A DNA stretch of 64,000 bases, taken from contig CM037870.1 of the NCBI GenBank assembly GCA_021292105.1, positions 14,045,234 to 14,109,233 of the forward strand, given 5' to 3'. Source of the stretch: Anadara kagoshimensis. Its lineage: Eukaryota; Mollusca; Bivalvia; Arcoida; Arcidae. The position numbers and the translations under genes were made by a program. Below, piece by piece: positions 6,346 through 29,864 of the stretch (its first letter is position 1; every line of letters begins with the position of its first letter). The notes below the pieces were generated by a model. That model did not search any database, had not been told where the DNA came from, and saw only the letters and a list, made by a program, of their open reading frames with translations.

Positions 6346-6346
6346 G
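6256..6346. repeat. (ATT)n(AAT)n(ATT)n compound microsatellite
   Basis: ATT repeats, then AAT repeats, then ATT repeats. The AAT and ATT blocks are self-complementary and could fold into a hairpin. The Asn/Tyr homopolymer reading frames here are artefacts of the repeat. Confidence 0.9.
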
Positions 6347-8152: not shown

Positions 8153-8154
8153 CA

Positions 8155-8650: not shown

Positions 8651-8887
8651 CTTTTATTTCAAATTTATAGAATATATGACAGCCATACAGTCTCAAGATT
8701 TAGGATTTTTAAGAAATGGATATACTGAATGGTTTGATAATAGTCAAAAAATTAACTTATGTAAACTGAGGAGGACTAAAACTTAAATATGCATATCCCA
8801 ACGCCAACCATTATCCTTTCTTAAATGATAAAATACTCACAAAAAAGTGATTACCTATGTATGAGGAAGATTCAATAAGTGCTCAGC

Positions 8888-9545: not shown

Positions 9546-9559
9546 TAGGTTGTTTACTT

Positions 9560-9945
9560 ATTGACTCGCATTTGTAAAACGTTTGTTAAGTTTTTTATAC
9601 GCCATGGTAAAACGTGTTCCGACTACCTGCTTTATACAACAAAACAAACTGCCTACAAATACATTTGTAACAAAAAATATTGCATGCCTAGGCTTCTTAA
9701 GACCATTCTTGGCCGTTATCATAATATTATTGATAAGTATGACGTCACTGTATGCAAAATAACTCTGGTTACATATGGCATTTCATAGATCCATGTTCCT
9801 CTAATTCAAAATGCCGATTTTTTTAGTTGTTTAACTTTAAATATCATCCGGCTTAAGTTCCCTGGTGAAAGTTCACGTGGTTACCATAATTTTCCAGTTT
9901 CACAGTTTTTACTTTTCATTCCGATAGTGATTTGGACATCTGCCA
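9560..9945 (+). mobile_element. R1 retroelement fragment
   Basis: The frame from about 9600 to 9780 is open and contains LLKTILGRYHNIIDKYDVTV, the C-terminal RT block of the family. It is followed by the tail with CCTGGTGAAAGTTCACGTGG and GTGATTTGGACATCTGCC. Confidence 0.75.
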
Positions 9946-10810
9946 CCTGTGGTTAATAATTTAGAATAAAAGCAACATGGAATTAAGGAAGTCAATTAGA
10001 TCTAGGGTCATTTCGATAAAAAAGATATCATATTTATCAATCTTATTTTGTCATAAAACGTTTAAGGGCCTGGATAATCAGGAGGTGCTCATTATTGATT
10101 CTAGTTTTTTTGTCAAGCACCCTACGGACTACAAACAACTTACGCCGATTATAAAGAAATGTGAGGGTATTTTTATAGAATACGTATTTGTATCCGTTGT
10201 GTTTAGTAATTATCCAACAAACAATCTCTTTACCAATAAACACAAACTGTGCTTGCCGATTCTTTAGGGGAAGTTGTGAAATCTGGAGAAAACACCGTCA
10301 CTAAATGATTCGACTCCGACCACATATGGATTTATATTTCTTAATCATCAAACGTTTAAAAACTATGTAAATGTATATTCTAGTTAGCTTGTAATAACAA
10401 AAGCAACTGATTGTTCTGCTTCATATTTCAACATTTACCTCAATTATGACATCCATCGAATCCAACATTTGCAGTTGTGTGACAATTGTGATGACATACG
10501 TTTTTCTATTGTCAACTTTCCTTTTAAATGCAGCAATACACTAGCTCATCATCCTTATGGTGTATTTTTTTAGATAAAAAGATATGATAGGGTTTGTTCT
10601 TACAACTGGAACTTCATAAAACAAGGCGAGGCAAACTGCTTACAAATAAATTGTGGATGCAAAGACATTGCAAGCCTAAGACCTCTAAAACGTTTTATAG
10701 CCGTCATAATAATAGTGTAAATAAATATGAAGATTTATCTAACATAAGACTAGTTTTTCTGTCTGTATTTGATGAAATACAAGTTTTATTGAACACGCGT
10801 GATACAGAAT

Positions 10811-10838
10811 CTTGTATCACCACACTGTGGTGATACAA
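10811..10838. repeat. Perfect 13-bp-arm palindrome
   Basis: TTGTATCACCACA and its reverse complement flank a single C. It would form a stable stem. It lies just left of the hairpin element interrupting the R1 copy. Confidence 0.85.
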
Positions 10839-11046
10839 CATTGGCGGTAAAGTACACGTGCACTTCTAATAGAAACGTCACCGGGGAATCTCCGATTTGC
10901 CAAATGTAAACAATGACGTCATTACTACAAAACATGTGATAACATAGTTCAGTGGTTTTCTGTGGTAAAATGTATTTTTTTCACATAAATTATTGTTTTT
11001 TTTATTATTTTGATGACCTGATAGGAAATGTTAGATAAGAATACCA

Positions 11047-11213
11047 TATACACAGTGTATATGTACAACCCTTCGTATCAGGTCTCGTCTTTTTTTCGTA
11101 GCTATATCACTATCGTCGCGCAAGCGCTACTTGTAGTGATACGACTACGAAAAAAAGACTCGACCTGATACTGAGGGTTGTACATACACACAGTGTATAT
11201 AATATGTATGTAT
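11047..11213. mobile_element. Hairpin (foldback) element of about 165 bp
   Basis: Arms of about 70 bp are near-perfect inverted repeats. Both ends, read inwards, run CAC-A/T-GTGTATGTAC-like, then CAACCCT, ATCAGGTC, a run of T and CGTAGC/TC. The loop is GC-rich (GTCGCGCAAGCGCTAC). It resembles a MITE without coding capacity, inserted in an R1 copy. A TATA-like target duplication is possible but cannot be told apart from AT-rich flanks. Confidence 0.75.
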
Positions 11214-11430
11214 CTGTATCCAAAATAATCTTCGGTATTTTGACGTCCCATAATTCCATGTTCCTTTAAGCTTCAATTTTGAATACACAGATGGTGGTTT
11301 TAACTAGCCAAACAGGATATGCTTCCGCTACCAGAGTACCCTGACCTACCTACCAAGAAAAGTGTACTTGTATATATTAGTTTGATATTTTTCAAATTAT
11401 AATTGCTTTTTATTGTGTCGGTATGTATAT

Positions 11431-12094
11431 ACTCTACATAGTTGTAGTGTTATCTTTGATAAACTAGTATTTGACTCACTGTATTTTAGCAGTTGTCATG
11501 GAAATCAAAAAAACTTAAATTCAGGTTTGTATTTCGCAGTTACTTGAGCCTACAGTAGTCGCAATTGAAAACCCCCATTCACAAATATCATGAGGTATTC
11601 GATTAGAAAGGAACATGTTGTCTCTGTGGGAATCTTAGGCATGTAAGTGTTGTCCTTGGTGACAAATTAAGTCATATGTAAACGGAATTGCCTGGTTTGT
11701 AAAATTCCCATAGTGTCTAGCTGTGTGCAAAGATAGTTGCGACTGCAGACGGCAATTTCCTGTTATGACAAGTGACAACAATATGTTTCAAATTTATTAG
11801 ATTTGAATAAAATTAGGATGAAACAATTACATAGATAACAGTATGCAAACGACATAAAGAAGTTATACAGGGTCCGTTATGGCATATGAGGTTGAAGTGG
11901 AGTATGGAAGTCACATGACGTAAACCACGCCTTAATCGCAGAATTTTAGAAAGTATGTCTGTTTGACCAGTTTTACAGAGTAAACAAAGGGGCATCAATC
12001 AAGGTCACATATATTAAAGAATCCTTGATATAGATGACATGATAAGGTGCGTATATAATATAATAGGTCTAATATTTCTTTAATTGTATAGATA
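11431..12094. other. No feature recognised
   Basis: Mostly unique AT-rich sequence. The minus-strand ORF at 11813-11998 has no recognisable domain and is probably chance. Confidence 0.4.
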
Positions 12095-13245
12095 AATATG
12101 TCCGGCCTCACTTCCTTGGTGAAAGTTCACGTGTTACAAAGTTTTTACCTTACTTCTAGATTGTGATTTGGACAGGATTAGTAAGTTTATTTACTTTTTA
12201 TATGTAGATTTTGGAAAGTATCGGAAGGTCCAGAATAAAAACGAAACCTTGACAAGCTAAGTGACAAACTTTCACGCATTAGGATATGTCGAAATGGGAT
12301 TCTGATCTGAATGGTTGCTGACTTTGTGATAAAAAAGGGTGGACCTAAAGCCAAAGAAATTCCTTCTTAAGTAAGCAGGCTGCTTACAAATAAATTGTTG
12401 ACCCCGGGATATTGCAAGCCTAAGCTTATCAGGGCCCTCACAAAGTTTACGCGTTTAACCTAACTTGTCGGTTTCAAAGTTTTTACTTTGCTTTTGGATT
12501 GTGATTCGAACATGGATGAGTAGACTGCAAGTTCAACTACAATTAGTTTGTATTAAGGTTGTGGAATGAACAATATATTATCTATCAACATATAAAGAAC
12601 ACGTATATTGTTCGATTTATTTATTTGCTGAAAAAATATTACATGTACATAATATAGTTATATAAGTAATAAGAAAATTTGAAACACACGTCTCTTCGTT
12701 TCTTCGTTATCCTGAAATAATAATAATAATAATAATAACACTAGTAATATTTAAAATAAAAACAATTGTTGATAAGTATGATGTCTCTGTATCCAGAATT
12801 ATCCTGAACATATTTAAAGTCCCATATTTCCATGTTCATTTCATTTCCAATTTTGATTTCACAACTGGCGGCTTGTAGCTAGAGTAGGTTGGCTACTTTT
12901 CCGGCGCACTCGGTCTCATTTCCCCTTATTGAAGTTCACGTATTTAATATAATTTGCCAATTTTCAGAGTTAATACTTTTCTTTGGGATTGCAAATGTGA
13001 CATTTTTGTTGTTGAATAATATCTCTTAAGCAGGCTAAATACTGAAGGTTTTACAAAACTCCACATGTTTAATATGATCTGCAAATTTCAAACATTTAAA
13101 TTTCCTTTTGGGGTTTTGATTTGGACGTTGATTGGTATGTTGTCTTCCCTTGGGAAGCTCATGTGTTGAAATAAATATGCCATTTTGCAAAATGTTTGCT
13201 ATTGGAATTTTGATTTTAACATTGGTATGTTTGCGTTGATTTATT
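12095..13245 (+). mobile_element. Cluster of R1 3'-end fragments in the same orientation
   Basis: At least five partial copies: about 12095-12190 (tail only), 12370-12530 (RT C-terminus joined to tail by an internal deletion), 12766-13000 (GATAAGTATGATGTCTCTG to tail), and two short tail ends at 13045-13140 and 13148-13245. Repeated use of the extreme 3' end fits 5'-truncated retroelement insertion or tandem arrays. Confidence 0.65.
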
Positions 13246-13319
13246 ATTATCAATATTGAACTATACATCCAACTACACTCTATAGATTTACATACTTAAT
13301 TTTATTTTCTATTTATACC

Positions 13320-13595
13320 ACTGTAGTAGCTCAGTGGGTAAAGTTTTCGTAAGTTGAAAGTTGTGGATTCGATTCCCGGCAGGATCTGTCTCAAGACTTC
13401 AAAGTGGGTAGTGACTGTTCTTTCACCATGCGCTCGTCATTACGAATCAGATGGGGACTTAAACGAAGTTTCGTGTCACAGTAGGCGTGGCACGATAAAG
13501 AATACCCTGCTGTATAATGCCCTCAGCGCAACACGCATGGACAAATTCTGCACCTTCGCCTAAAACCGGCGACGTCTCTATATAATTGAAAAAGT
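13320..13595 (+). mobile_element. S1 SINE
   Basis: Starts with a tRNA-like head (CTGTAGTAGCTCAGTGGGTA, B box GGATTCGATTCCC), keeps the body and ends at GGCGACGTCTCTATATAATTG without the usual GTTAAAC end. It lies just downstream of the last exon of the micro-exon gene, in opposite orientation. Confidence 0.85.
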
Positions 13596-13689
13596 CTTTT
13601 CTACGACATAAAACTCCATTACGCAAGCTAATTTTCTATTGAAAAACTTTTACTTACACAGGTCTGTCATATAGGATATTATAAGCAGT

Positions 13690-13721
13690 TTAGCATCGTC
13701 CGTCGTAACAATCTTTTGGAC
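13690..13721 (-). CDS. Last coding exon, tail GPKDCYDGRC and stop
   Basis: The acceptor CTTTTACAG precedes GTCCAAAAG. In phase 1 the exon reads GPKDCYDGRC then TAA. GPKD also opens the exon at 20394, which supports the frame. A consensus donor (GTGTAAGTAAAAG) follows in the 3' UTR at about 13657, so a 3'-UTR intron or an alternative ending in another frame is possible. Confidence 0.75.
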
Positions 13722-13831
13722 CTGTAAAAGATAATACAGGTATATAAGTGTGCATTATACAATAATTCCTCTTATAACGTATACCGAAAGCGACAAAGGA
13801 AGAACAAATGTTGTTCTTAATCACCGCTCAC

Positions 13832-13879
<48 letters not shown>

Positions 13880-14360
13880 GATAAGTACCATAAATCATAT
13901 TTACACGAGAAAGAGAGAGAGGGGGACGGGAAGAGAAATAGAGAGAGAGAATGTGAGCACCATAAATAATATTTGAACAAAATACAGAGAGAGGGGGAAA
14001 AGAAATGAAGAGAGAAGGAGAGAGAGTTTGTTTGACTTTCAAACCAAAGTATATTCGACGGAATTCATTTGTGGAAACATAGTTCTAATCAAGTTGATGA
14101 AGCGTTTATGATAAATGATGTTTCGAAAATGACGCTATAATTCACATTAAAACTTGAGAGTGAAAAAGAGAGAAAGAGAGAATACTCACCGGGTTTATAA
14201 TTGGGTCCAGGTTCTAAAATAGAAAATTTAAACACATTTATTAATACTAGTAGCAAAACACAATAAAGATGTATTGAAAAACAAGATTACATCGTTTGTT
14301 TACGTAAACAAGCATCGCGTTTCAGCAATATATGTTTCTTATATTTTAATATTCGCGCGC

Positions 14361-14434
<74 letters not shown>

Positions 14435-14680
14435 CTTACGATATGGTGGTGGATAATCTCCTGGTCCTATTTTGCAAAAAATATATATATATATACACAT
14501 TAGTAGTTCATTGTGATACATGTATACGAAAAATATATTTATTTTTAGTTAAAATTTTTACGTTACAAAATGCACATGAATAGTTGATGATTTTTTGCTT
14601 TAAAAGATTCCAAAATCGCACCTTTCATTTATCTTCTTACCTTTTCAGATTTTTTAAAATTTGGGTTGTTTTAAAACAAT

Positions 14681-14715
<35 letters not shown>

Positions 14716-15200
14716 TTAATGAGTACCATAAATCATATTTAAACGAGAAAGAGAGAGAGAGAGAGAGGGAAGGAAAGAGAAATAGAGAGAGAGAATGTGA
14801 GCACCATAAATAATATTTGAACAAAATACAGAGAGGGGGGAAAAGAAATAAAGAGAGAAGAAGAGTTTGTTTGAGTTTCAAACCAAAGTATATTCGACGG
14901 AATTCATTTGTGGAAACATAGTTCTAATCAAGTTGATGAAGCGTTTATGATAAATGATGTTTCGAAAATGACACTATAATTCACATTAAAACTTGAGAGT
15001 GAAAAAGAGAGAAAGAGAGAACACTCACCGGGTTTATAATTGGGTCCAGGTTCTAAAATAGAAAATTTAAACACATTTATTAATACTAGTAGCAAAACAC
15101 AATAAAGATGTATGAAAAAACAAGATTACATCGTTTGTTTACATAAACAAGCATCGCGTTTCAGCAATATATGTTTCTAATATTTTAATATTCGCGCGCT

Positions 15201-15265
<65 letters not shown>

Positions 15266-15494
15266 CTTACGATATGGTGGTGGATAATCTCCTGGTCCTA
15301 TTTTGCAAAAAAAAATATGTATACAAATTAGTAGCTCATTGTGATATACGAAAATATATATTTATTTTTAGTTAAAATTTTTACGTTACAAAATGCACAT
15401 GAATAGTTGATGATGCTTTGCTTTAAAAGATCCCAAAACCGCACCTTTCATTTATCTTGTTACCTTTTCAGATTTTTAAAAAATTTGAGTTGTT

Positions 15495-15526
<32 letters not shown>

Positions 15527-16212
15527 CTCACCTTGATAGCTATCTTTTGCTGTAACAAAAAACATATATAGTCATTAATAGAGCATTAAACATTATACAG
15601 TACAGACCTGTCAAAAATTTAACAACAAGTTAAAGCATTGGCTCATATATATCGTAGCAGTTGCTATCTACCATCGATACAGGTTTGAGAGCACCGGGTA
15701 TCTAGAACTTGACTCTTTGCGTTAGTTCAATGTTAAACATTTGAAAGGTCTGTATATATAAACAAAAGAATGAGTTATAAAGGCGAATGTAAAAAACAGT
15801 GGTGCTTTTTTTTCACTTTTTAAAAACCCACTTTACGCAAAATTTAATATATTTCTACATAGATTTTGCAACATACAAAGAAAGAATGAAGATAAAAAAG
15901 AAAGAATCTCTCGAATTAGATTTTATATATGAATGATCAAAATAATATTAAATGCAGAATATCATGAAAATATATACAGCGATTCCGTTTTGCTTTCAGG
16001 GTTTTGCAACATGTTGTCGTGACCGCATTAATAGGTATATATCGGTTTGTTTGTTGAATATTGTCTTTGAGAGGGGTCTCTCGGGTTATATGCCTTACTA
16101 GGAAACGTTCGTACACCACGGCCTCTATTTTACAAATGTTATCATATCGTAAATTTATATGGTAATGAAACTTTTTAGCATACAATTGTTATGTTTTGTT
16201 TCTTAAATGCTG

Positions 16213-16269
<57 letters not shown>

Positions 16270-17075
16270 TAATACTCACGTGGTGGTGGTGGTGGCGGTG
16301 GTGGTTCTGTAAAAAATACAATTTTATATGTTAGAAAATAATCTCATATAAACTACAAATAAAAAACAAACATACTGATACATGTCCTAATTACATATCC
16401 GAATCACAATCTAGAAGCAAAATTAAAATTTTGCAACTGACAAATTAGGTTAGACACATGATCTCCCGCCGGGTGCTCCGGAAGGGTAAGCGCCTCCTGT
16501 TTAGCTAGCTACACCCGCCTGAATAATCTGGAAGATTTGTTTCGTCAAAAAAAAATGGCGCAAAATAAATAAACGTTACTGGATATCACGTGGTACAGCT
16601 GACGCATCCCATTTGTTCAAAATAAGCTCGTTTTACGGGAAAGCGTGAACCAATATGATTCCCAATTCAATGGAAATAATTGATCAACACCAAGGTTATA
16701 GGGTATCACGTGGTACAGCCGAGAACCTCATTTGTAAAAAAAGCTACTTTGTCATAATGTGGTGGAATTAGAAGAAAAGATTTCAATGATAAAAAAATTA
16801 TAACTAAAACCGAAAACGTTAATAGACAAATTTGAATTTAAGATTAATATACTTACTGATTTCGCATTGTTTTTTCGCGTTTCTGAAATAACCAAAATTG
16901 CATACGCATGCTCCTTCTATACAATGTTCGTTGGGGGTCTGACATTTATCTGTAAATTAGAGTTAAAACAAGAATAAATATCAAGATTATATATGTACAT
17001 GGCGCGTCACATACAGTCTTCACAATGGCCAACAGGCCACACGTAGACGCTAGACTCCAACAATAATTAAGTTTG

Positions 17076-17165
<90 letters not shown>

Positions 17166-20100
17166 ATTGAACGATTGATTAATTTATTGATTGATTGATC
17201 GATTGATTGATTGATTGATTATGTATTGGGGTTTAACGTCCCTGTCAAGCATATTTCACTTATATCAAGACGTCACCAGCTTTGGGTGAAGTGGAAGAAA
17301 TAAATTTTACCTTTGTAGTTGCGCACAGGGCAATATGCAAGGAGGGTTTATATCGTGCCACGCCTGATGTCACACGGGACATCGGTTTTAAGGTCCCCAA
17401 TAACTTTCAATTTTAAATGCCGAGTGTCTGGTGAAATAACAGTTACTACCGATTTTCACGTCTTGGTCAGGCCAGGCGGGGGCTCGAATCCACGACCTTC
17501 CACATAAGGAGCGAGCATTCTACTAACTGACCTACCGTAGTGGTCTTTTAAAAATATAATGGATGAATTAAACACAAACATTACTATTCCATGTCCAAAC
17601 CACAATCTTCCCCAAAAAGCAAAGTAAAAACTTTGAAAACTGTCTGAAAATTATTTGAAACGCATGAACATTAATACTTAATTATGAAACATGAAAGCAT
17701 TTAAGCACATGAATTCTAGCCTGCATGCGTGTATACATAGTTACTTACACATGCACTCTAAAGAGTTGGACTTTGGATCTCTGAAAAAGCATGGTGCACA
17801 GTCTGCAAGGCATCTTCCGCGGTAACAGTTATCTTGCTTCAAACAGTCGGCATTCTTATTACATTCCACTCGAACACAAAATGTATCTTCACAAATACGA
17901 CCTCTTCCGCATTGTTGGTCAAATTTGCATCTTGGTTTGTTAACGCATCTGTTTCGGTCACACCTATTTCCACTACCGCAGTCCTGGTCTCTCCAGCATT
18001 GCTCAAAGGTGCAGAAACTATTTACGCAAATGTAGCCTTTACCGCATTGCTTATCGCTGTGGCATTTTCGCTTTCTGTTTACGCATCTCCCTCGGTTACA
18101 TGCTAGTCTTGGGTCATTGCAGTCTTTATGCTTTCTACACTGAACTGGGACACACCAAAAGTTTAGACAAAGGAGTCCGGGCTTGCAGTTACTATCTTTT
18201 TCACATCTGTCTACTTTGTGATAAACAATTTTCCTGTCATCTGGAAATGCAAATAATGGAAATTAATGGAATATTCAGCAGAGTCATGTCGAATCAGTTT
18301 AACACAGACCGAACAAAAAGGAGTCGGAGATCGGCTACCGAGTAACCGATGTATAGATAGCTACGGTACAAACCTGACGAAAGTTTAACAAAAGGTTAAT
18401 GAAAATAAATCGAAGCTGAGTGTCCGAGGTATGGATAATCAGTGGCTAAAAAGCTGTCGAGATTTCGACAGCATCTTCCGAAGATTATTCGAGATATCGC
18501 TAACGAGGAGCTAAGATGAGCAGTTCATTCCGTATCAAGTCGTTAGCTTAGTGTTAAACTTTCGACGGGTCTGCACTGTAGTGGCAGAAAAGCTGCAGAG
18601 ATTTAGATAGCAACTTTCGAAAAGCCGACGAAAGGGGCCGAAGATGCCTTTCCAAATTGTTAGCTTTGTGAAATCTGTTGAGAAGGGCCGAGGATGCCTG
18701 CTCAAATTGTTAGCTTTATAAAATCTGTTGAGAGGCGCCGAGGATGCCTGCCCAAATTGTTAGCTTTGTGAAATCTGTCGAGAGTGGCCGAGGATGCCTG
18801 CCCAAATTGTTAGCTTTGTAAAATCTGTTGAAAGGAGCCGAGGATGCCTGCCCAAATTGTTAGCTTTGTGAAATCTGTTGAAAGGGGCCAAGGATGCCTG
18901 TGCAAATTGTTAGCTTTGTGAAATCTGTTGAGAGGGGCCGAGGATGCCTGTCCAATTTGTTAGCTTTGTGAAATTTGTTGAGAGGGGCCGAGGATGCCTG
19001 TCCAAATTGTTAGCTTTGTGAAATCTGTTGAAAGGGGCCGAGGGTACCTGTACAAATTGTTAGCTTTTTTGAAATCTGTTGAGAGGGGCCGAGGATGCCT
19101 GTCCAAATTGTTAGCTTTGTGAAATCTGTTGAAAGGGGTCGAGGATGCCTGCCCAAATTGTTAGCTTTATGAAATCTGTCGAGAGGGGCCGAGGATGCAT
19201 GCCCAAATTGTTAGCTTTGTGAAATCTGTCGAGAGGGGCCGAGGATGCCTGTCCAAATTGTTAGTCTTGTGAAATCTGTTATGAGGGGCCGAGGATACCT
19301 GCCCAAATTGTTAGCTTTGTGAAATCTGTTGATGGGGCCAAGGATGCCTGCCCAAATTGATAGCTTTGTGAAATCTGTTGGGAGGGACCGAGGTTGCCTG
19401 TCCAAATTGATAGCTTTGAGAAATTTTTCGAGAGGGGCCGAGGATGCCTGTCCAAATTGTTAGCTTTGTAAAATCTGTTGAGAGGGACCGAGGATGCCTG
19501 CCCAAATTGATAGCTTTGTAAAATCTGTTGAGAGGGGCCGAGGATGCCTGCCCAAATTGTTAGCTTTGTAAAATCTGTCGAGAGGGGCCGAGGATGCCTG
19601 TCCAAATTGATAGCTTTGTGAAATCTGTCGAGAGGGGCCGGGGATGCCTGTCCAAATTGTTAGCTTTGTGTTAAAATACCGACAGGCTTGAAACAGAACA
19701 CAGGGATTTGTATTTATAAAAATGTATTTAGAAAAAGTAAAAGCAATTAAGCAATGAATATTCTAAAAAAACCGATTGAATTGAGAATTCAAAGCATACT
19801 GAATAATGCACGTTAGCGCGTTATAATTAGGTTGCTTTGCATGACAATGATGGATATAGCACAATTAACGTCATTTCTAGACAATTCAAAAGTTGTTCAG
19901 ATTTTATGAAAATCTAATTTTGTTTTTTTTTTTAAATCCTAAAAAAGCTTTTAAAATAACGTCATGTATGACACGTTTTTCCAATCGCTGGAAAAGCCAA
20001 TTAATGACGTCACGCGTATATGCATCTGACGCCACTTTAGCAATAGTAACTATACTGTGAACTCAAGAGTTTAATACAATAAAACATCACCAATGTAAAT

Positions 20101-20259
20101 ATACATTATGAAAGAGCGTCTCGTTTATACTTTCTGCAATATATATATATAATGTCTGTTTGCAAAAATAATTTTATAATCAGATAAGAAAGTTGATTTT
20201 CTAAAGGTGGCATGAGGGGTTAAAGCCTATACTCTTAATTATAATTTGATAAATATTAT

Positions 20260-20303
<44 letters not shown>

Positions 20304-20519
20304 AGGCGAGCGAGAGTTTTACAGTGAACAATTAGGAGAGGGGACAGACTTACAATATCAAAAGAGAGAGAGAGAGAGAGAGAGAGTACTTACAGTTGTC
20401 CTGATAATAACCGTCTTTTGGTCCTCCTACAAAAAACGTATATGTCAATAAGTCATGGATATTCCCAAAACAACACAAACCATGTACTAACTTGCAGGTT
20501 TTACTGAGAGAGAGAGATT

Positions 20520-20550
<31 letters not shown>

Positions 20551-20808
20551 TTATCCACCATTATCAAAGAGTACATTAATTATTTATCCTTTCACCAACC
20601 ATGTAAGAACATAAAACAGAGTATATATGAGGACATATATATAATGCCGTGCCCTAAACCCGACACCCCCCCCCCCTAATTCACGGTGCATATGTGTTTC
20701 TAATGGTGAAGGGTTAAGTCACATGTGGATATTTTACAACACATCAAATTCACATATAATCCCCGCATTATTAGATAATGACTACTTTATATATTTATAT
20801 TGTGGCAT

Positions 20809-20862
<54 letters not shown>

Positions 20863-21678
20863 CTTATAATACTTACCAGATGGGTAGTCTACATTATTAT
20901 AATTGTCTGGGTAATTTGCTACATAAAACAGAAATAAAAATTATTATAATAAGGAAACAATTTTTAGTGTGTAGTCGTCAAATCATTCAAAGATTATTGT
21001 TAGTTTCAATGTTCAATGAAACAATTTTTTCAGCAATTCACAATGAGAACAAGTTTAACTAGAAAAACTGTGAGCCACAAGCTCACAAAAAATACCCCCG
21101 CTCCCCCCACATAAAAAATCCACTGGATCGGATTTTTAAATAAGAGATGCACATCTACATTATATCACAAAGATTGTGTGAAAGTTTCATGAAAATCCAT
21201 TGAAGGGTTTAGGAGGAGTTGCGGATACGAGATAGATACCCTAAAGTGTAACAGAAGGACGGAAGGACGGACGGACACACGGACGGAAACCCCTATCACT
21301 ATATACCCCCACTTTTTAAGCGGGGGGGGGGGTATAATTATCTCTAAAGATTGATTTTAAACAAAATCCGTACTTGAGCGGACTTGGGGCGGCTTTATTG
21401 TGCTAGCTCATAGAGTTAGGGTACCGCAGACAAGGATAGCTCTCTCCAGTCAGATTACCTTGGTACTGGATGAATAAGTCGAAATTCTGTCCTCTTGTTA
21501 CTTAAACAGGATTGTGAGAATTTACACTTTGCTTGTTGATATGTCTATAACTCAGTTACCAAGACCAGACTTGCAAAATTATCAAACTATATACAAAAAC
21601 GTTTAAAATATACAATTTATTGTTTAATTTCCAATTATCATGTCTAAAAGTGTGTGTGTGTGTGGTGTGTGTGTGTGT

Positions 21679-21727
<49 letters not shown>

Positions 21728-22589
21728 GTGGTGGCTTAGTGGGTCTTTCTGCAAAAGAAAACAGAATTGCGCGTTATTAAACATAATTATATGTAAATCT
21801 GTGTCGTATTTTCAATAATAATATATAAGAAACGAAAGCAATTCATTTGCCATATTACAATTTGGAAATTTTATTCAGAAAATTAACAAAAAATAATCAA
21901 ATGACAAATTTCCATCATGTGTAAAAAACAGTATAACAGCGTGAGAGAGTCGCAACAAAATCATAATTCGATAACGCTACGCTCGTTTCTGGTTTTGTTT
22001 CATAACGAATACCCAATACGGACCCGTCGTAAGTTTAACACTAAGCTAGGATATGACTGCAAAATCGAAAGCTCATCTCGGCCCTCGTTTTCTTAGATCT
22101 CAACAACTACTGTCTATATCTCACGACAGCGTTTTGGCCACTATAGATAGTTCCCATGTGATGTCACACTTTTAACTTTACAGGTAAAGTAGCGGCCATT
22201 TTAGAAATGAGTCTTAATAATTCTTTCTAAAATAGGGTGTATAAAATTTATTTTAACATCGTTGTTACGGAGACAAAAATCTTATAAAATATACCAAATC
22301 AAAGTAAAAACATTGGCTATTTCATAAATTTAAAAACTTTATTAATATCCCAATTACTTTTTGAAAACAATAATTTAAAAACGAACATAGACAGATAAAT
22401 GATAGAGATTGCCTACAAAAATGGTGACCGCTCTACTGAAAAATCCGTCTGCTAGAGGTCCATGGGAACTATCTATATATCTCCGTCATTTTTAACTGAA
22501 CTCCGGATCCTTTGACACCGTCTTTTCCTTAGCTCAATGTGCAACTTTGATTTCAATAGATCTGTACTGTACATGTAATTTACATTTAA

Positions 22590-22623
<34 letters not shown>

Positions 22624-22660
22624 TCTATTTGTACTGTACATGTAAATTAACTTTTAAAAT

Positions 22661-22691
<31 letters not shown>

Positions 22692-22747
22692 TTTGTACTG
22701 TACATGTAAATTAACTTTTAAAATTTATTTATTATTTATTTATTAAT

Positions 22748-22790
<43 letters not shown>

Positions 22791-23957
22791 TTTGTACTGT
22801 ACATGTAATTAACTTTTAAAATGTATTATTTATTTATTATTTATTATTATTTTTTGTACTGTACACGTAAATTAACTTTTAAAATTTATTTATTTATTTA
22901 TTTATTTATTTATTTGTACTGTACATGTAAATTAACTTTTAAAATTTATTTATTTATTAATTTATTTATTAATTTTTGTTTCATTATTATGTTTAAATAG
23001 TGTCGTTATTTTAGAAAAAATAAAATCGACAAACGCTTACAAAACAATTACATAAAAAACTTATATTCAATTGTTATACATTCGAAAAATAAGTAAATAT
23101 ATCTGGACCCAGTTGTTCGAAGCTTGATTAGTTTAATCAATGATTAGCAGAAATTTAAAACATGAATAAAATCAAATATCATTATTGAATCAATTGTTTT
23201 ATAACAATTGTCCTTAGTTTGATGGAATATTTATTCATTTACAACATTTCAACATAAAGTTCACAATATATCTGAAATTATACAAAATTCAAATTTTGAA
23301 TAATCAATTGATTAAACTAATCATGCTTCGAACAACTGACCCTGGACATTACAAATATAAACGTTTGATGGCTAAATAAATATATTCAGGTTTTAAGAGA
23401 CTAACTACGTATATGAAATATTATTTCAACACTACCAAATGTGATATAGCGGGAGGGTGCTGTAAAATTCACTCTACATTTTCCCTTTGTAGAAAATGCA
23501 GAAAATGCAATAGTCTAAAATACTGTCAAATAAATTGACTGCTGATTGAAATGACACGCACAAAGTAAAGTAGCATTACCAGTATCATTATTTCAGGGTT
23601 TTTCGTGAAAATATAACACCAAGCTCCAGTTTAAAATTTAAATAATTCCTTAACTAAGATTTCCTCTTAATTTAAATCTGGCAAATGCAAACGCTAAGTA
23701 GTTTTGTTAGTTTTCAAAATAAAAATGTATTCATTTTTAGGTGTTTATGATTTAAATACATCTATATTTTAATTTTGTTGAACTATTTTTGTATTATTAT
23801 AAATTTTGTCAAAAGTTGACAGATTTCAGTTTAGGAATAATTATGAAACTTGGACCAGAAGCAAAAATTTCAATAAGAAAGTAAGTATGCAGTCATTACC
23901 TTTAGACGCTTCAGCGAGAACAAGGCATACGCCAAGAAGAGCTAGAATCCGCCACAT
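13690..23957 (-). CDS. Secreted Cys-rich, Pro/Gly/Tyr-rich protein encoded by a 13-exon micro-exon gene
   Basis: Exons by position, 5' to 3' on the minus strand: 23900-23957, 21728-21748, 20877-20918, 20394-20426, 17749-18240, 16857-16949, 16280-16306, 15532-15549, 15271-15297, 15029-15052, 14440-14466, 14190-14213, 13690-13721. All 12 introns are GT-AG and phase 1. Internal exons are 21, 42, 33, 492, 93, 27, 18, 27, 24, 27 and 24 nt, all divisible by three; total 918 nt gives 305 aa. Protein order: signal peptide (1-19); a short Pro/Tyr/Asn/Gly region (about 20-51); six C-x5-C-x5/6-C-x4-C modules and a CxxC turn (about 52-215); an EB/EGF-like module (about 216-246); a polyproline step; GPGDYPPPY and QPGPNYKP twice each; and a GPKDCYDGRC tail. 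It is presumably extracellular. Tyr/Pro/Gly repeats recall matrix or adhesive proteins, and symmetric microexons recall the micro-exon genes of schistosomes; neither fixes a function. Homology is not claimed. Confidence 0.85.
14190..14213 (-). CDS. 24-nt microexon QPGPNYKP (second copy)
   Basis: Acceptor CTATTTTAG, donor GTGAGT followed by TATTCTCTCTTTCTCTC. Symmetric phase 1. Identical to the exon at 15029-15052. Confidence 0.8.
14440..14466 (-). CDS. 27-nt microexon GPGDYPPPY (second copy)
   Basis: Acceptor ends GCAAAATAG, with only a modest pyrimidine run. Donor GTAAGT is followed within two bases by a long (CT)n tract and then (AC)n. Symmetric phase 1. Confidence 0.78.
15029..15052 (-). 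CDS. 24-nt microexon QPGPNYKP (first copy)
   Basis: Acceptor CTATTTTAG, donor GTGAGT followed by GTTCTCTCTTTCTCTC. Symmetric phase 1. Confidence 0.8.
15271..15297 (-). CDS. 27-nt microexon GPGDYPPPY (first copy)
   Basis: Donor GTAAGT runs straight into CTCTCTTTCTCTCTC. Acceptor ends GCAAAATAG behind a run of T. Symmetric phase 1. Confidence 0.78.
15532..15549 (-). CDS. 18-nt microexon PKDSYQ
   Basis: Acceptor TTTTTTGTTACAG and donor GTGAGT, which runs directly into a (CT)n tract of about 15 units. Symmetric phase 1. It is the shortest exon of this gene. Confidence 0.75.
15597..15757. mobile_element. MITE-like inverted-repeat element (family G)
   Basis: Both ends read inwards as a variant of TACAGACCTGTCGAAAGTTT followed by AACACT. 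Many other G copies or ends are in the window: 18366-18590, 22019-22573, 25787 onward, 36888-37445, 39968-40140, 47550-47735 and 61619-61730. No coding sequence. It lies in an intron of the micro-exon gene. Confidence 0.65.
16216..16267. repeat. (GA)n tract, (CT)n in the transcript
   Basis: About 25 GA dinucleotides, 13 bases inside the intron from the donor of the polyproline exon. One of a set of such tracts that follow the microexon donors of this gene. Confidence 0.95.
16280..16306 (-). CDS. 27-nt microexon encoding eight prolines
   Basis: Acceptor TATTTTTTACAG, donor GTGAGT. In phase 1 it gives Lys (split codon) and eight Pro codons (seven CCA, one CCG), then a split Pro codon. It forms a stiff spacer between the Cys-rich half and the Gly/Tyr repeats. 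Confidence 0.78.
16370..16520 (-). mobile_element. R1 retroelement tail fragment
   Basis: Minus-strand tail with CCGGAGCACCCGG (here GTGCTCCGGAAGGG reversed), CTAACCTAATTTGTC and GATTGTGATTCGGA. Sense orientation within an intron of the micro-exon gene. Confidence 0.75.
16857..16949 (-). CDS. EB/EGF-like exon (93 nt)
   Basis: Acceptor CTCTAATTTACAG, donor GTAAGT. It encodes YKCQTPNEHCIEGACVCNFG followed by YFRNAKKQCEI. The pattern C-x6-C-x5-C-x1-C-x4-GY-F then C is typical of EB or EGF-like modules, which form small disulfide-bonded extracellular domains. No CT tract follows its donor, unlike the microexons. Confidence 0.82.
17072..17220. repeat. (GATT)n microsatellite, tail of adjoining SINE
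   Basis: About 37 near-perfect GATT units with occasional GGTT variants. It directly adjoins the 3' end of the S1 SINE at 17221-17542 and looks like an expanded SINE tail. Confidence 0.92.
17221..17542 (-). mobile_element. S1 SINE, GATT-tailed subfamily
   Basis: Minus strand, tRNA-like head at the right end (CTAACTGACCTACCGTAGTGG reversed). The body carries subfamily markers TTTTACCTTTG and GGCAATATGCAAGGAGGGTT, shared with the copies at 55655 and 61728. Confidence 0.82.
17574..17672 (-). mobile_element. R1 retroelement extreme 3' end
   Basis: Short minus-strand tail piece with CAAAGTTTTTACTTTGC, GATTGTGGTTTGGACATGG and TAGTAATG. It lies 80 bases beyond the donor of the large Cys-rich exon. 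Confidence 0.6.
17749..18240 (-). CDS. Large Cys-rich exon with six C-x5-C-x5/6-C-x4-C modules
   Basis: 492 nt, phase 1 to phase 1, no stop. Acceptor CATTTCCAG, donor GTAAGT. The modules are CEKDSNCKPGLLCLNFWC, CRKHKDCNDPRLACNRGRC, CHSDKQCGKGYICVNSFC, CWRDQDCGSGNRCDRNRC, CKFDQQCGRGRICEDTFC and CNKNADCLKQDNCYRGRC, followed by a different CAPC/CMC ending. All six cysteine repeats sit in one exon, so this array grew by internal duplication rather than exon shuffling. Basic residues dominate the loops. The opposite strand has shorter chance ORFs. Confidence 0.88.
18366..18590. mobile_element. Family G inverted-repeat element
   Basis: Left end ACAAACCTGACGAAAGTTTAAC and right end GTTAAACTTTCGACGGGTCTG are inverted copies. 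Internal words CCGAGGTATGG and CGAGATATCGC recur in other G copies. Confidence 0.65.
18629..19671. repeat. 50-bp minisatellite, about 21 units
   Basis: The unit is GGCCGAGGATGCCTGNCCAA, ATTGTTAGCTTTGTGAAATC, TGTYGAGAGG. Unit divergence is a few percent. The word TTGTTAGCTTTGTG with CTGTCGAGAG resembles the family-G end CGTTAGCTTAGTGTTAAACTTTCGAC, and a G-like end (TTAAAATACCGACAGGCTTG) closes the array, so it probably arose from a G element. It lies in intron 4 of the micro-exon gene. On the minus strand units lack stops, so chance ORFs of up to 108 aa appear. Confidence 0.92.
19672..20393. other. Rest of intron 4
   Basis: AT-rich sequence and two GA tracts (about 20261-20300 and 20362-20386). 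The second abuts the donor of the exon at 20394. A GTAAGT near 20350 on the minus strand has no acceptor upstream and is not called an exon. Confidence 0.5.
20394..20426 (-). CDS. 33-nt exon GGPKDGYYQDN
   Basis: Acceptor ACGTTTTTTGTAG, donor GTAAGT followed at once by ACTCTCTCTCTCTC. Symmetric phase 1. Its PKD motif recurs in the exons at 15532 and 13690. Confidence 0.8.
20808..20862. repeat. (GA)n tract
   Basis: About 27 GA units, ten bases into the intron after the donor of the exon at 20877. The plus-strand Arg-Glu ORF through it is a repeat artefact. Confidence 0.95.
20877..20918 (-). CDS. 42-nt exon, Asn/Tyr/Pro-rich
   Basis: Acceptor CTGTTTTATGTAG, donor GTAAGT. Encodes PNYPDNYNNVDYPS with split codons at both ends. 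A second in-frame acceptor (ACCCAG) lies 12 nt in, so a shorter 30-nt form is possible. Confidence 0.78.
21060..21330 (+). repeat. Interspersed repeat, family T
   Basis: Begins CTAGAAAAACTGTGAGCCAC, contains AAAGTTTCATGAAAATCCAT and a GGAC/GGAAGGACG run, and ends with a C-run/G-run pair (CCCCCACTTTTTAAGCGGGG) that can form a short stem. Two other copies: 41015-41290 (minus) and 46022-46290 (plus). No coding sequence recognised. Confidence 0.8.
21365..21470 (-). mobile_element. Fragment of SINE family S2
   Basis: Shares GCTAGCTCATAGAGTTAGGG, TACCGCAGACAAG and the cluster CTCCAGTCAGATTA with the fuller copy at 36925-37285. Confidence 0.6.
21728..21748 (-). CDS. 21-nt microexon ERPTKPP
   Basis: Acceptor CTGTTTTCTTTTGCAG, donor GTAAGT running straight into (CT)n and then (AC)n. 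Symmetric phase 1. It joins the signal exon to the Asn/Tyr exon. Confidence 0.8.
22019..22573. mobile_element. Family G element with inserted sequence
   Basis: Left end ACCCGTCGTAAGTTTAACAC and right end near GTGCAACTTTGATTTCAATAGATCTGTACTG match G ends. The middle holds about 350 bases that do not match other copies, flanked by ATAGATAGTTCCCATG and its inverse CATGGGAACTATCTATA, which suggests a second, nested inverted-repeat insertion (about 22142-22476). Confidence 0.55.
22574..22978. repeat. Composite tandem array of TTTA runs and a 34-bp spacer
   Basis: Six repeats of a spacer containing TGTACTGTACATGTAAATTA then ACTTTTAAAATTTA alternate with TTTA runs of variable length. The spacer core TGTACTGTACATG is nearly palindromic. 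It lies in intron 1 of the micro-exon gene. Confidence 0.9.
23104..23347. mobile_element. MITE-like element with about 40-bp terminal inverted repeats
   Basis: Ends read inwards CCAG(GG)TCAGTTGTTCGAAGC and ATGATTAGTTTAATCAA. AT-rich interior with no ORF. Partial copies: 33800-33866, 37480-37560, 40180-40250 and 61425-61445. Confidence 0.75.
23900..23957 (-). CDS. Signal-peptide exon of the micro-exon gene
   Basis: ATG at 23957 opens MWRILALLGVCLVLAEASK and exits in phase 1 at donor GTAATG. It is a textbook signal peptide: one basic residue, a hydrophobic core and a likely cut near AEA-SK. The TATA box lies 50 bases upstream of the ATG, giving a short 5' UTR. Confidence 0.87.
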
Positions 23958-24006
23958 ATTGTTGTGAAAGTTATCGAAAGTATACCTTAAACTAAATTGC
24001 CTTGGC

Positions 24007-24014
24007 TATTTATA
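24007..24014 (-). promoter_or_regulatory. TATA box of the micro-exon gene
   Basis: TATAAATA on the minus strand. Transcription would start about 30 bases on, near 23983, leaving roughly 25 nt of 5' UTR before the ATG at 23957. Confidence 0.65.
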
Positions 24015-24469
24015 TGATCTATAATTTTGTTACCATGGCAACGTTGATGTTAAGCCATAAAAGAAAGGTAAATATGCAAATTAGTTAGATAAGGAAATCA
24101 CTTGTTTAACAAAGCAAAAAATGTTTGTCATGTAACACTTGAACTGAGAAGGCGTATGCATTCAAGCACACTAACCCACAATTCGACACACACAGTTTCC
24201 GTTAAAAGTTTAAATAAAAACTTTTAATATAATAAATTATTATATTACGAAAAAAAATATAAAAGTAAATAATATCAAAAAAACATTATGACGTAAAATT
24301 TATTTATTGTTTAGAAAAAAATGAAAATAATAAATTTCTTGTTGAATTTTCAAAAATTTCATTCTTCCGTTTTTAGTACAGATATTGCATCATATTTCAG
24401 TAGACGTTTGAGCTGGCACGTTCTAAAAGTGCATGAAAGTGGGACAATGCAATCAAGAATTTCCTCGAT
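24015..24469. other. Upstream region of the micro-exon gene
   Basis: AT-rich with no repeat family recognised. It presumably holds the upstream promoter, but I see no site I can name. Confidence 0.4.
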
Positions 24470-25460
24470 TATATCGAGTTGGTCAGTTCAAGGATAATAG
24501 AGGAAACCGGAGTGCCCGAAAAATTCCTTTGACAAGCGAACTTCCAAACATTCTTACATTAAAACATAAATTGTAGCTCGGAGCACCCGGTCTCACTTCC
24601 TTGGTTCACGTGTCTAACCTGACTTATCCAAAATTTTTACTTTATTTCTGGATTGTGATTCGGACATGGATTAGTATGTTCATTTTAATTATATCTTGGC
24701 AGTCAATTCGATTATAATGGGGGAACCGGAGTGCCCGGAAAAAATTCTTTAACAAGCGAACTTACAAACTTTCTAACATTAAAACATAGATCGTAAGTGT
24801 AGTAAAATTGGCTATTGGTGTTTTACACCTAGTCAAAACATTCTCACTTATATGGAGGCAGTCATTAAGAATAATGGAGAAAACAGGAATGCCCGGCGGA
24901 CACCTTCGGCAAGCAAACTCACAAACATTCTCATATTCTCACGATAGAACGTAGGTCGTAAGTGGACTATTGGTGTTTTACGCCCCAGTCAACACACTCT
25001 CGCTTATATAGAGGCAGTCAATTAAGGATAATTAAGAAACCTGGAGTGCCCGAAGAATGCCTTTGGCAAGCTAACTTACAAACTTTCTCAAATTAGAACA
25101 TAGGTAAATGTAGAAGAGTTGGCCATTTGTGTTTTTACGCCCCAGTTAAGACATTCTCGTTTATATGGAGGCATGCAGTCATTAAAAATAATGGAGGAAA
25201 TCGGAGTTCCCGAAGAATACCTTCGGCAAGAGAACTTATAAACTTGATCACATTTCAACTAATAGAAAAAAAGGTATATCTAGTTTGTGCAATAAGGTGG
25301 GGTAATGGTTTTTAACGCCACAGTCAAGATTCTCTCACATATCAAGGTAGTCAGTTTGTTGAGAAAACCGAAGTTCCGGATAATACATCTGACCTTTCGC
25401 GTGCACACTGACAATATTTCTCCCACTATATCAAGAATCTGTCCTTAGTGAAATTCAAAC
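24470..25460. repeat. Tandem array of about 155-bp units
   Basis: Six diverged units, each with GGAGGAAACCGGAGTGCCCG, then CCTTTGGCAAGCGAACTTAC and GTTTTACGCCCCAGTCAA. Unit starts lie near 24490, 24700, 24870, 25020, 25180 and 25345. A short R1 tail (about 24578-24690) interrupts the first. The same block appears within the SINE-like copy at 42250-42550, its likely source. Confidence 0.75.
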
Positions 25461-25786
25461 TTTGGCTGTGACTGTGATAAGCACGCACTTTAGGTCATGA
25501 TCAGTCACAGAGGCCCTAATTTTCTGGTTTGAATTTTTTCTAAAGTTATGTGAGGGTTAAATTGTTAAAATAACAAATTAAGTTAAAATATAGTTTAAGA
25601 GGACATACTTATTTGCACTAAGTTGAATTTGAGCACAGCATTATGAGATGAAAGTAAACCTTTGTAACTGAATTACTCGATCAACTTTTCTTCACATATA
25701 AAAAAAACCAAATTTGATAGATCATATTTCAAGCAACAATAAAAAACATATGAATTTTAACAAAGATTAATTAAACTAAATATACA

Positions 25787-26030
25787 CAGTACGGGGTTGT
25801 CGAAAGTTTAACACTGAAATAACGATAAACTACGATGGCCGATAACAGCCATGCCACACTACAATATTTTTACTTTTGCGTGTCATTGATGTACACATGC
25901 ATTTTGACAGTCTACAGTTAAATTTTACTGTAGACTGTCATAATGTACGTAAGTGTACATCAATGGCGCGCTACAGTGAAGTTACTGTAGACTGTCCTGG
26001 CTGATATCGGTCACCGTAAAAAGGAGTAGA
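25787..26030. mobile_element. Family G end with internal hairpin
   Basis: Left end TACGGGGTTGTCGAAAGTTT then AACACTGAAATAACG. It carries an 80-base hairpin at about 25886-25966 whose arms include TTGATGTACAC and GACAGTCTACAGT with their inverses; a third ACTGTAGACTGTC copy follows at about 25984. Confidence 0.6.
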
Positions 26031-26559
26031 AACTTGGCCTCAGATGGCCGAAATGTGGATTGCTAATGTAAGAAAGCTGCAGCGATATAGATAGCAGCTA
26101 GCATAAAACTGTCAAAACAAGGCACCATAAGTGATACCCCTCCCCTCGCAATGGAGTATTGTGTAAAACCTGTATTTTGGAGCGGATGATATGATTTTTT
26201 CACCAAATTTTTTAAATGCGGATGAAAGCATAAAATTCATACACAAACATTTGTCAAAGAACACATTTATAAAATCATATTTGAACATTCCGTTGTTTGT
26301 CATTTTCAAGATGGCCACCGAAAAACAAATATGGAGACATATTTGCATTGCATGGGTAAATTATATTTTATAGTGTGGGTTAAAAAAACATGAACTAAAG
26401 TTAGAGTGATAACTCTGAAATATTTCACTAAAATAGACAAAGGGCTATAACTCAAAGGGGCTCCCTAGTTACAAAACGCGAACTTGTCCAAGACATTACC
26501 ATGGGAAATCCTTGTGTCAAGTTTTATTAAATTCTGTTGAGAAATAAAGTTGTTAGAGC

Positions 26560-26886
26560 GTAGGTGCATACAGCCCAACCCGCCTTAAAGTTCACCTCTA
26601 TATAGGACCACCTGCTTATAAAGGCCAGTAAAATTGTATCCCACATGCTCTTTTATTCATGTTAAACCTCTATATAAGGACCACCTGCCCATCAAGGCCA
26701 CTGTATATAACTTGTTCTCTCTGGTGGTCTTTATAGACAAATTTGTTTGTAGTAGCTATCGAAAAGATGTCGAAATACAGTAAACCAGGAGGCGAGTTGA
26801 GGGATCGATTCTGCTTTTATTCGTAAGCTTAATGTTAAACTTTCAACAGGCCTGTACTTTATGTTTAGCTAGTGACCGGAAAGCTG

Positions 26887-26944
<58 letters not shown>

Positions 26945-27045
26945 AACTACCGAAAAGCTACCAACATATAGCTAACGAGAGGTCGAGAAGAGCTGGTGAT
27001 TCGGCACTTTAGCCGAGAGTTAAACTTTTGACAGGCCTGTATTGA
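26560..27045. repeat. Mixed repeat region with GA tract and family G ends
   Basis: Holds two copies of CCTCTATATA(A)GGACCACCTG (26588, 26666), a G end near 26824-26866 (GTTAAACTTTCAACAGGCCTG), a (GA)n run at 26889-26942, and another G end at 27010-27043. No gene is seen. Confidence 0.6.
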
Positions 27046-27349
27046 ATGTAATTTGTAAACAAGTCGGTAACTTATTAGCATATTATTAAACTTTATGGTT
27101 CTCCTTAATACGCAAAAACAAGTGTTGATAATCCATTTTAATTGACAGCATACCTGTTTGATAAAACCCACATATCGTAATAAGATGATTTGTCAATACG
27201 ATGTGCACATCATTTTCTTAGTAACAAAGTATTTGTTAAATAAATTTTAAAAAGTATATATCCTTGTTCAAGTTAATTTCAACTTTGTTAAAAATGTAAA
27301 CCACCCACTATTTAAAATTACAATGTTGATCATAGGTTTTAAATAAAAC

Positions 27350-27676
27350 TTAGAAACTCCGCAAGTGGGAGGACATGGGTTCGAACCCCGACCTGGTCTG
27401 ACCCCAAGACTTGGAAGTGGGTAGTGACTGTTCTTTCGCCAAGCATCCGGTATTACGAAATAAAATTCACAGTTCTATTGGATGGGAACTAAAACTATAA
27501 ACGAGGTTCTGTGTCACAATAGTTGTGGCACGATACAGAACCCTAGAGTAATCCCATCAACGCAACACACACGCAAGATTCCTGCACCTTCGACTATAGC
27601 TGGCGAGGTCTCGATATAAGTAAAACATCCCTGACTTGGACGTTAAACACCGGTAACCACTACCCAACTCAACTCA
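27350..27676 (+). mobile_element. S1 SINE lacking the first part of its tRNA head
   Basis: Starts near CCGCAAGTGGGAGGACATGG with B box GGTTCGAACCCC, has the whole body and ends at GACGTTAAACACCGGTAACC. The A box is absent or replaced. Confidence 0.85.
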
Positions 27677-27904
27677 CTTTCAAATTGACAAAGTTGATCA
27701 TGAGTTTAAAAAAAAACTAAGAAACATATTTTTAGAAATTGATAAAAAACGCAGACTTCGTCAAAATTTTGATACATGCTTGATTGGTCAGATGGCTATG
27801 AAAACACTTAAAACCTTACTTATTTCTGAGTTTTATTTAAGATGTTCATTTAAACAATTGTTATTACTTTAAATATTTTTTTCTCGATTGGTCAAACTTG
27901 AAAA

Positions 27905-29717: not shown

Positions 29718-29864
29718 ATACGATAACTATGACTCAATCTCAGAAAAGAGTTTTATAGAACAAAGTCAATACAACTTTAAATATTTAACATAAAACTATA
29801 TTGTAAGGTTGTATTCAGAAAAAAATTAAGACAAGTATTCTTTATTTTATTGTATGCTCAAAAA

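Follow-up and report, generated by a model that had tools for sequence, protein, structure and literature searches.

A predicted micro-exon gene of the bivalve Anadara kagoshimensis with a pyrimidine tract behind each of its nine micro-exons

We analyzed a stretch of 64,000 nucleotides of the Anadara kagoshimensis genome (GenBank assembly GCA_021292105.1, contig CM037870.1, positions 14,045,234 to 14,109,233; the window), which holds a predicted micro-exon gene on its minus strand, running from position 23957 to position 13690. The gene appears to be functional and to encode a predicted secreted protein in which a disulfide-rich core (exons 5 and 6) is flanked by two flexible Pro/Gly/Tyr-rich arms built from nine symmetric micro-exons. 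Each micro-exon is followed by a pyrimidine tract close to its donor, and this coupling is the most interesting part of the locus. A preliminary description made from the sequence alone had reported the exon structure exactly but had overlooked the tracts. The explanation that we favor for the whole, with a probability of about 0.55, is a constrained core with micro-exon arms, in which CU tracts aid recognition of the micro-exons and arm length shifts by duplication of exon blocks and perhaps by skipping.

Exon architecture and pyrimidine tracts

The rebuilt gene model contains 13 exons with GT-AG borders at every junction (58, 21, 42, 33, 492, 93, 27, 18, 27, 24, 27, 24, and 32 nt) that join into a single 918-nt open frame, from the ATG at 23957 to the TAA at 13690, encoding 305 amino acids plus the stop, which reproduces exactly the frame described before. 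All 12 introns are in phase 1 and all 11 internal exons have lengths that are multiples of 3, so that the reported symmetry of the internal exons also stands. Nine of them are micro-exons of 18 to 42 nt, three located 5' of the core (21, 42, and 33 nt) and six 3' of it (27, 18, 27, 24, 27, and 24 nt); the ten pieces under 45 nt counted in the preliminary description correspond to these nine and to the 32 coding nucleotides of the last exon. Together, the micro-exons account for 243 of the 915 coding nucleotides (27%). The claim that any subset can be removed without a frameshift is borne out, since all 512 combinations of skipped and included micro-exons keep the frame, giving 384 distinct proteins. 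The splice sites of the nine micro-exons, scored with a generic matrix, all have positive scores that are mostly fair to strong.

The structure of the gene is accompanied by a regular feature of its introns. A (CT)n or interrupted pyrimidine tract begins 0 to 9 nt after the GTRAGT donor hexamer in 9 of 9 micro-exons and in none of the 3 other exons that have a donor. Within the first 60 nt after the donor, seven micro-exons show a pure CT run of 24 to 47 nt, and the tract is interrupted at exons 10 and 12. Pyrimidine content at positions +7 to +40 ranges from 0.82 to 1.00 at the nine micro-exons and from 0.47 to 0.68 at exons 1, 5, and 6, and only 6 of 225 intron-interior windows reach 0.8. 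This enrichment is significant against the three other donors (p = 0.005) and against the intron-interior windows (p = 1e-12), although the nine tracts are not all independent because exons 9/11 and 10/12 are duplicates. The tract is retained at all 7 micro-exons found in a second copy of the gene and at a candidate micro-exon of a paralogue (see below). Tracts of (GA/CT)8 or more are concentrated in the gene, which covers 16% of the window and contains 12 of its 16 tracts, all reading CT on the transcribed strand; this orientation alone says little because the four tracts outside the gene share it.

A mechanical scan for exons of 9 to 60 nt with a length divisible by 3, open in phase 1 and scored with a generic splice matrix, yielded inside the gene exactly the nine micro-exons, compared with 14 candidates on the rest of the minus strand and 15 on the whole plus strand. 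The cut-offs were placed just under the weakest of the nine after their scores were known, and the result is therefore descriptive. With the cut-offs unchanged, 200 dinucleotide-shuffled versions of the gene contained 1.35 +/- 1.10 candidates, with a maximum of 5. A CT run of at least 10 nt within 45 nt was present at 7 of the 9 candidates in the gene and at none of the 29 others.

Exons 9 to 12 lie in a tandem duplication, whose two blocks (13843-14706 and 14681-15526) are 92.3% identical. The position of the block edges suggests that a CT tract served as the break point of the exon-block duplication. Two further repeats were seen among the introns: a minisatellite of 21 copies of 50 bp within intron 4 (18633-19670) and, by eye, a stretch of 15 nt next to a GA tract that matches exon 9/11 exactly but is inverted (20546-20560, plus strand, GGAGATTATCCACCA).

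Predicted protein, second copy and paralogue

The N-terminus of the predicted protein (MWRILALLGVCLVLAEA) is typical by eye of a signal peptide, and the arms, also by eye, have a high content of Pro, Gly, Tyr, and Asp/Asn; they may serve in a matrix or in adhesion. The core matches DUF7107 (Pfam PF23416) with 42.6 bits in the open frame 17741-18262 (curated cut-off 24.6, E 7.7e-11) and with 30.9 bits in residues 1-246 of the spliced protein. The Dickkopf N-terminal domain scored below its curated cut-off of 25 in both sequences (22.8 and 17.7 bits, respectively). A relation of the Cys-rich core to low-density lipoprotein (LDL) receptors was considered and rejected: six marginal PDB sequence matches, all to LDL-receptor-family chains, were obtained (best E 0.0017), and we do not read them as homology.

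A second copy of the gene is present on the same contig in two pieces. Positions 1-19837 of the window correspond to C14:12985785-13003844 and positions 21310-33700 to C14:15404592-15415000, where the last coordinate is the end of the fetched stretch and bounds the extent of this match; the alignment pieces are approximately 81% to 97% identical, with gaps between them. Exons 5-13 of the copy lie at C14:12998672-13003086 and exons 1-2 at C14:15405077-15407092, and splice sites are kept where shown. Exon 1 (C14:15407035-15407092) and exon 2 (C14:15405077-15405097) are identical in both copies, the latter together with a CT tract. Exons 3 and 4 were not found within the 70 kb fetched around both pieces, with no genome-wide search made, and the break between the two pieces falls in the stretch that holds these exons. 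Two observations lead us to infer that this copy is an uncollapsed second haplotype and not a true gene duplicate: its pieces flank the window on a single contig, and an unrelated sample of 40 sites (see below) includes four pairs that look duplicated 0.3 to 1.5 Mb apart.

The differences between the copies show constraint on the core. Exon 5 differs at six positions, all 6 synonymous and none nonsynonymous, and exon 6 at one. Over exons 5-13, 10 of 764 nt differ, compared with 208 of 3199 nt in the introns; the last intron, intron 12, is 20% different and probably misaligned, and when it is excluded the intron count is 124 of 2789 and the contrast is still significant (p = 1.4e-5). Reading the codons by hand, we found that 2 of 3 differences in exons 7-13 and 0 of 7 in exons 5-6 change an amino acid (p = 0.07), which hints at weaker constraint on the arms than on the core.

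A whole-genome protein search with the core exon 5 gave four places in total. The paralogue on C12 comprises a first exon at 18890971, a core exon at 18868610-18869134 and an exon 6 at 18867868; its core is 70% identical, with a ratio of nonsynonymous to synonymous divergence (dN/dS) of 0.13 at a dS of 1.47, which is close to saturation. In the place matching exon 7, at 18867287, it carries a 30-nt candidate micro-exon with a 72-nt GA/CT tract behind it, which was the only micro-exon recognized there, as none of micro-exons 8-12 and no last exon was identified in this paralogue. A second, partial C12 copy has its first exon at 18858151. The second copy and the paralogue support the view that the gene is coding. 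Two ordinary-size exons under strong constraint make up 64% of the coding sequence, which leads us to describe the protein as a fixed core with small-exon arms.

Tract-donor association in the genome and competing explanations

The micro-exons of this gene, each of them paired with a pyrimidine tract near the donor, are very short for exon definition of the ordinary kind. In the explanation that we favor, a CU-binding factor, PTB-like or TIA-like, would bind the downstream tract and stabilize U1 on that donor, so that tract-assisted micro-exons would normally be recognized and their inclusion would be tunable by tissue. The arms would then grow or shrink in steps of 6 to 14 residues, by duplication of exon blocks at repeat tracts (from exons 9-10 to exons 11-12) and perhaps by optional skipping. 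TIA-1 and PTB are position-dependent in their effects and can activate from the downstream side of an exon. Published work describes very short exons as hard to define and dependent on intronic sites, and points to RBFOX and PTBP1, bound in the introns on either side, as likely regulators of micro-exon inclusion in human brain (PMC4317164). CU-rich sites are the targets of PTBP proteins; PTBP1, whose binding acts in a position-dependent manner, also promotes some exons (PMC10551640).

To extend the analysis beyond the locus, we counted donor-tract combinations in the whole genome. GTAAGT(CT)9 occurs 181 times, compared with 48 occurrences of the backward pattern, and HTAAGT(CT)9, in which the first base is A, C, or T, occurs 105 times, compared with 139 for its own backward control. 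The resulting ratio of 181:105 is 1.72. Its background was taken from the window, where base share predicts 0.20 and all such hexamers stand at 44:148. Because tandem or duplicate copies occur among these hits, the counts are not all independent. We then sampled the first 40 of the 181 GTAAGT(CT)9 sites and 20 controls from the first 23 of the 105 HTAAGT(CT)9 sites; the hit at C4:17981906 was left out for its overlap with a sampled GTAAGT region, one cluster of three was counted once, and one control (L099) was lost because its first match fell outside the expected place, leaving 19. The number of independent sites is lower, since four pairs among the 40 (L060/061, L068/069, L070/071, and L083/084) and one control pair (L106/107) look duplicated. 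Within 300 nt upstream, 23 of 40 GTAAGT(CT)9 sites and 3 of 19 controls had a scoring 3' splice site and an open exon. CT tracts thus often abut likely donors in this genome, and the 181 exact sites offer material for a statistical test.

Several observations weigh against the favored explanation. The link between tracts and donors is not specific to micro-exons: a candidate exon of at most 60 nt was present at 8 of 40 GTAAGT(CT)9 sites and at 2 of 19 controls, and we therefore dropped the idea that CT tracts are linked genome-wide to micro-exons only. Only 16 of the 40 sampled sites have a G at position -1, and GTGAGT(CT)9 shows no enrichment in the genome (27 occurrences and 26 of the reversed control). 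Within the gene, tracts at 13837, 14691, 14751, 20270, and 20520 adjoin no recognized exon. For the small exons by themselves, the sign of conservation is no more than suggestive, because the 3 differences in the 179 nt of exons 7-13 are significant with intron 12 included (p = 0.006) and no longer so once it is left out (p = 0.085). Finally, the effect of PTBP1 on micro-exons is mostly repressive, with a signal upstream of them (PMC4317164), which makes the sign of any tract effect uncertain.

Further loci were inspected for a similar arrangement. Around all 27 GTGAGT(CT)9 hits (approximately 1.5 kb per side), several donor-plus-CT sites fitting exons occurred only at the gene and its copy, and no further gene with the clustered arrangement was accepted; one of these hits (L029) has three donor-plus-CT sites and yielded no exon call. 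A cluster on C7 was rejected as a micro-exon gene because it is a tandem repeat of an exon end: at C7:38122790-38125586 (L053, C7:38120501-38126500), 20 tandem copies spaced 131 to 163 bp apart each consist of an exon 3' end, GTAAGT and (CT)n, and most of them have no scoring 3' splice site. Five GTAAGT(CT)9 hits on one strand of C10 (19410639, 19437602, 19460130, 19482664, and 19506069), spaced approximately 22 to 27 kb apart, perhaps mark a tandem gene array.

The C7 cluster bears on the alternative that survives best, according to which splicing of the micro-exons is constitutive and the CT tracts, as neutral microsatellites, grow where the T at the donor end precedes CT and act only as recombination points for exon-block duplication. 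Amplification of a tract with no splicing use, as most C7 copies indicate, would be expected under this alternative, as would the GA tracts at the edges of the tandem blocks and a genome-wide association that is not tied to small exons. We nevertheless hold it to be rather doubtful, because it leaves unexplained why a tract follows all 9 micro-exons and none of the 3 other exons and why GTAAGT is in excess over HTAAGT before (CT)9, and because the interrupted tracts at exons 10 and 12 have remained pyrimidine-rich.

Another explanation, proposed in the preliminary description, is that the gene generates combinatorial diversity, many skip combinations producing a large set of secreted variants, as do the micro-exon genes (MEGs) of schistosomes. 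The 512 in-frame combinations and 384 proteins are compatible with such use, and exon skipping does yield isoforms in schistosome MEGs and SmVAL6 (PMC4015677). However, keeping the frame is a general trait of micro-exons, found in more than 80% of the Caenorhabditis elegans micro-exons studied (PMC7706725), and nothing in the uniformly positive splice-site scores marks the nine as weak, optional exons. Phase-1 symmetry, moreover, is common in extracellular proteins; this and the generality of frame-keeping mean that symmetry alone is no evidence of combinatorial use. As an explanation of the locus, we regard a schistosome-like combinatorial function as unlikely. The earlier interpretation therefore holds in part: a gene for a Cys-rich, Pro/Gly/Tyr-rich protein with a signal-peptide-like start and a micro-exon structure is present, and the rest is weakened by the large constrained core, by the generality of frame-keeping and by the aphid bicycle genes discussed below. 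That the locus is decaying or artefactual (a chance exon chain, a pseudogene, or an assembly artefact) is highly improbable, since the split, haplotype-like second copy on the same contig, with exons 3-4 not found in its fetched parts, bears on the copy and not on the gene model, and the intact frame, the exclusively synonymous differences in exon 5, the dN/dS of 0.13, and the splice sites kept in the copy all argue against it.

Returning to tract-assisted recognition with a constrained core, the presence of a tract behind every micro-exon makes it testable how the spliceosome finds exons of 18 to 27 nt and whether a simple repeat beside the donor can replace exon definition. A bolder extension, which we regard as unlikely, would be a general intronic code of this lineage in which (CU)n next to the 5' splice site specifies exons that are too small for exon definition, letting genes build, duplicate, and mix modules of 6 to 14 residues (up to 384 secreted variants here) and gain new modules through recombination at repeat tracts.

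The positions of the exons, tracts, and tandem blocks are listed in Table 1. Elsewhere in the window, an intronless open frame on the plus strand (59411-60655, 414 amino acids from stop to stop) contains a BIR (inhibitor of apoptosis) domain (E 5.9e-8). A dispersed repeat of approximately 300 bp (1444-1782, 13302-13625, and 17223-17544) recurs at several places in the C14 and C12 sequences fetched, and may be a tRNA-derived short interspersed element because a tRNA-Thr call (1711-1781) falls in its 1444-1782 stretch.

Table 1. Features of the micro-exon gene (positions in the window)
Feature	Position	Strand	Description
Exon 1	23900..23957	-	58 nt coding, with start codon and signal-peptide-like MWRILALLGVCLVLAEASK; first exons resembling it at C12:18890971 and 18858151
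Micro-exon 2	21728..21748	-	21 nt, then GTAAGT(CT)n
(CT)n after exon 2 donor	21695..21722	-	
Micro-exon 3	20877..20918	-	42 nt; CT tract downstream
(CT)n after exon 3 donor	20811..20860	-	
Micro-exon 4	20394..20426	-	33 nt; GPKDGYYQDN; CT tract downstream
(CT)n after exon 4 donor	20364..20385	-	
Exon 5	17749..18240	-	492 nt; Cys-rich core, DUF7107 repeats
Exon 6	16857..16949	-	93 nt; further Cys-rich segment, EGF-like by eye
Micro-exon 7	16280..16306	-	27 nt; Pro run; CT tract downstream
(CT)n after exon 7 donor	16217..16266	-	
Micro-exon 8	15532..15549	-	18 nt; CT tract downstream
(CT)n after exon 8 donor	15501..15526	-	
Micro-exon 9	15271..15297	-	27 nt; GPGDYPPPY; CT tract downstream
(CT)n after exon 9 donor	15222..15257	-	
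Micro-exon 10	15029..15052	-	24 nt; QPGPNYKP; interrupted pyrimidine tract downstream
Micro-exon 11	14440..14466	-	27 nt; identical to exon 9; CT tract downstream
(CT)n after exon 11 donor	14393..14432	-	
Micro-exon 12	14190..14213	-	24 nt; identical to exon 10; interrupted pyrimidine tract downstream
Exon 13	13690..13721	-	32 nt, last coding part; GPKDCYDGRC; stop TAA
Tandem block copy 1	13843..14706		Holds exons 11-12; edges in or beside (GA/CT)n tracts
Tandem block copy 2	14681..15526		Holds exons 9-10

Comparison with known micro-exon systems

Among the papers listed by literature searches, which covered mainly non-subscription journals and were judged by title and start of abstract, many concern schistosomes and other helminths and the others different topics, and none is on a micro-exon gene of a mollusc. 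The rule used for tapeworm and fluke genes asks for at least 7 exons, at least half of them micro-exons (shorter than 70 nt and divisible by 3), and a run of at least 4 (PMC7653826). Counting exons 1 and 13 by their coding parts, the gene has 13 exons, 9 of which are micro-exons, and exons 7-12 form a run of 6, so that by this rule it is a micro-exon gene in structure. The likeness to schistosome MEGs holds to that extent and not in proportion, since micro-exons there make up as much as 75% of the coding length in Schistosoma mansoni (PMC4015677) and here 27%. A start that by eye resembles a signal peptide, runs of symmetric exons divisible by 3 and small exons between longer introns are shared with fluke and tapeworm MEGs (PMC7653826, PMC10526429, PMC4015677). 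The large constrained Cys-rich core sets the gene apart from them, as does the CT tract behind each micro-exon, a feature that the available portions of these reports do not mention.

Outside flatworms, the aphid bicycle genes are another micro-exon case, which weakens the interpretation given in the preliminary description; they also have many micro-exons, internal exons almost all in one phase, and putative secreted effectors as products (PMC9168663). Their exons are in phase 2, whereas those described here are in phase 1 throughout and thus lack the bicycle phase, and they form a fast-evolving family averaging approximately 17 exons (PMC9168663), in contrast to the small family (four exon-5 matches) and strongly conserved core found here. 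With vertebrate micro-exons controlled by RBFOX and PTBP1, the gene shares very short exons and, presumably, inclusion that depends on intronic binding sites, but the PTBP1 signal is upstream and mostly repressive there (PMC4317164) and the tract is downstream here. Micro-exons 2-4 and 7-12 form runs in this gene. To our knowledge, vertebrate micro-exons do not occur as runs that build one low-complexity arm. Tropoelastin-type matrix genes encode low-complexity extracellular segments with small symmetric phase-1 exons; the likeness to them is drawn from exon design and not from sequence, and the core here is Cys-rich.

The nearest architecture is that of SmVAL6 of Schistosoma mansoni, in which ordinary exons for a conserved secreted domain are followed by small, alternatively used exons (PMC4015677). 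The core here consists instead of DUF7107-type Cys-rich repeats, three extra micro-exons precede it, and alternative use of the small exons, documented in SmVAL6, is here hypothetical. If transcribed as predicted, this would be a micro-exon gene separate from those of flukes, tapeworms, and aphids, its SmVAL6-like architecture built around an unrelated core.

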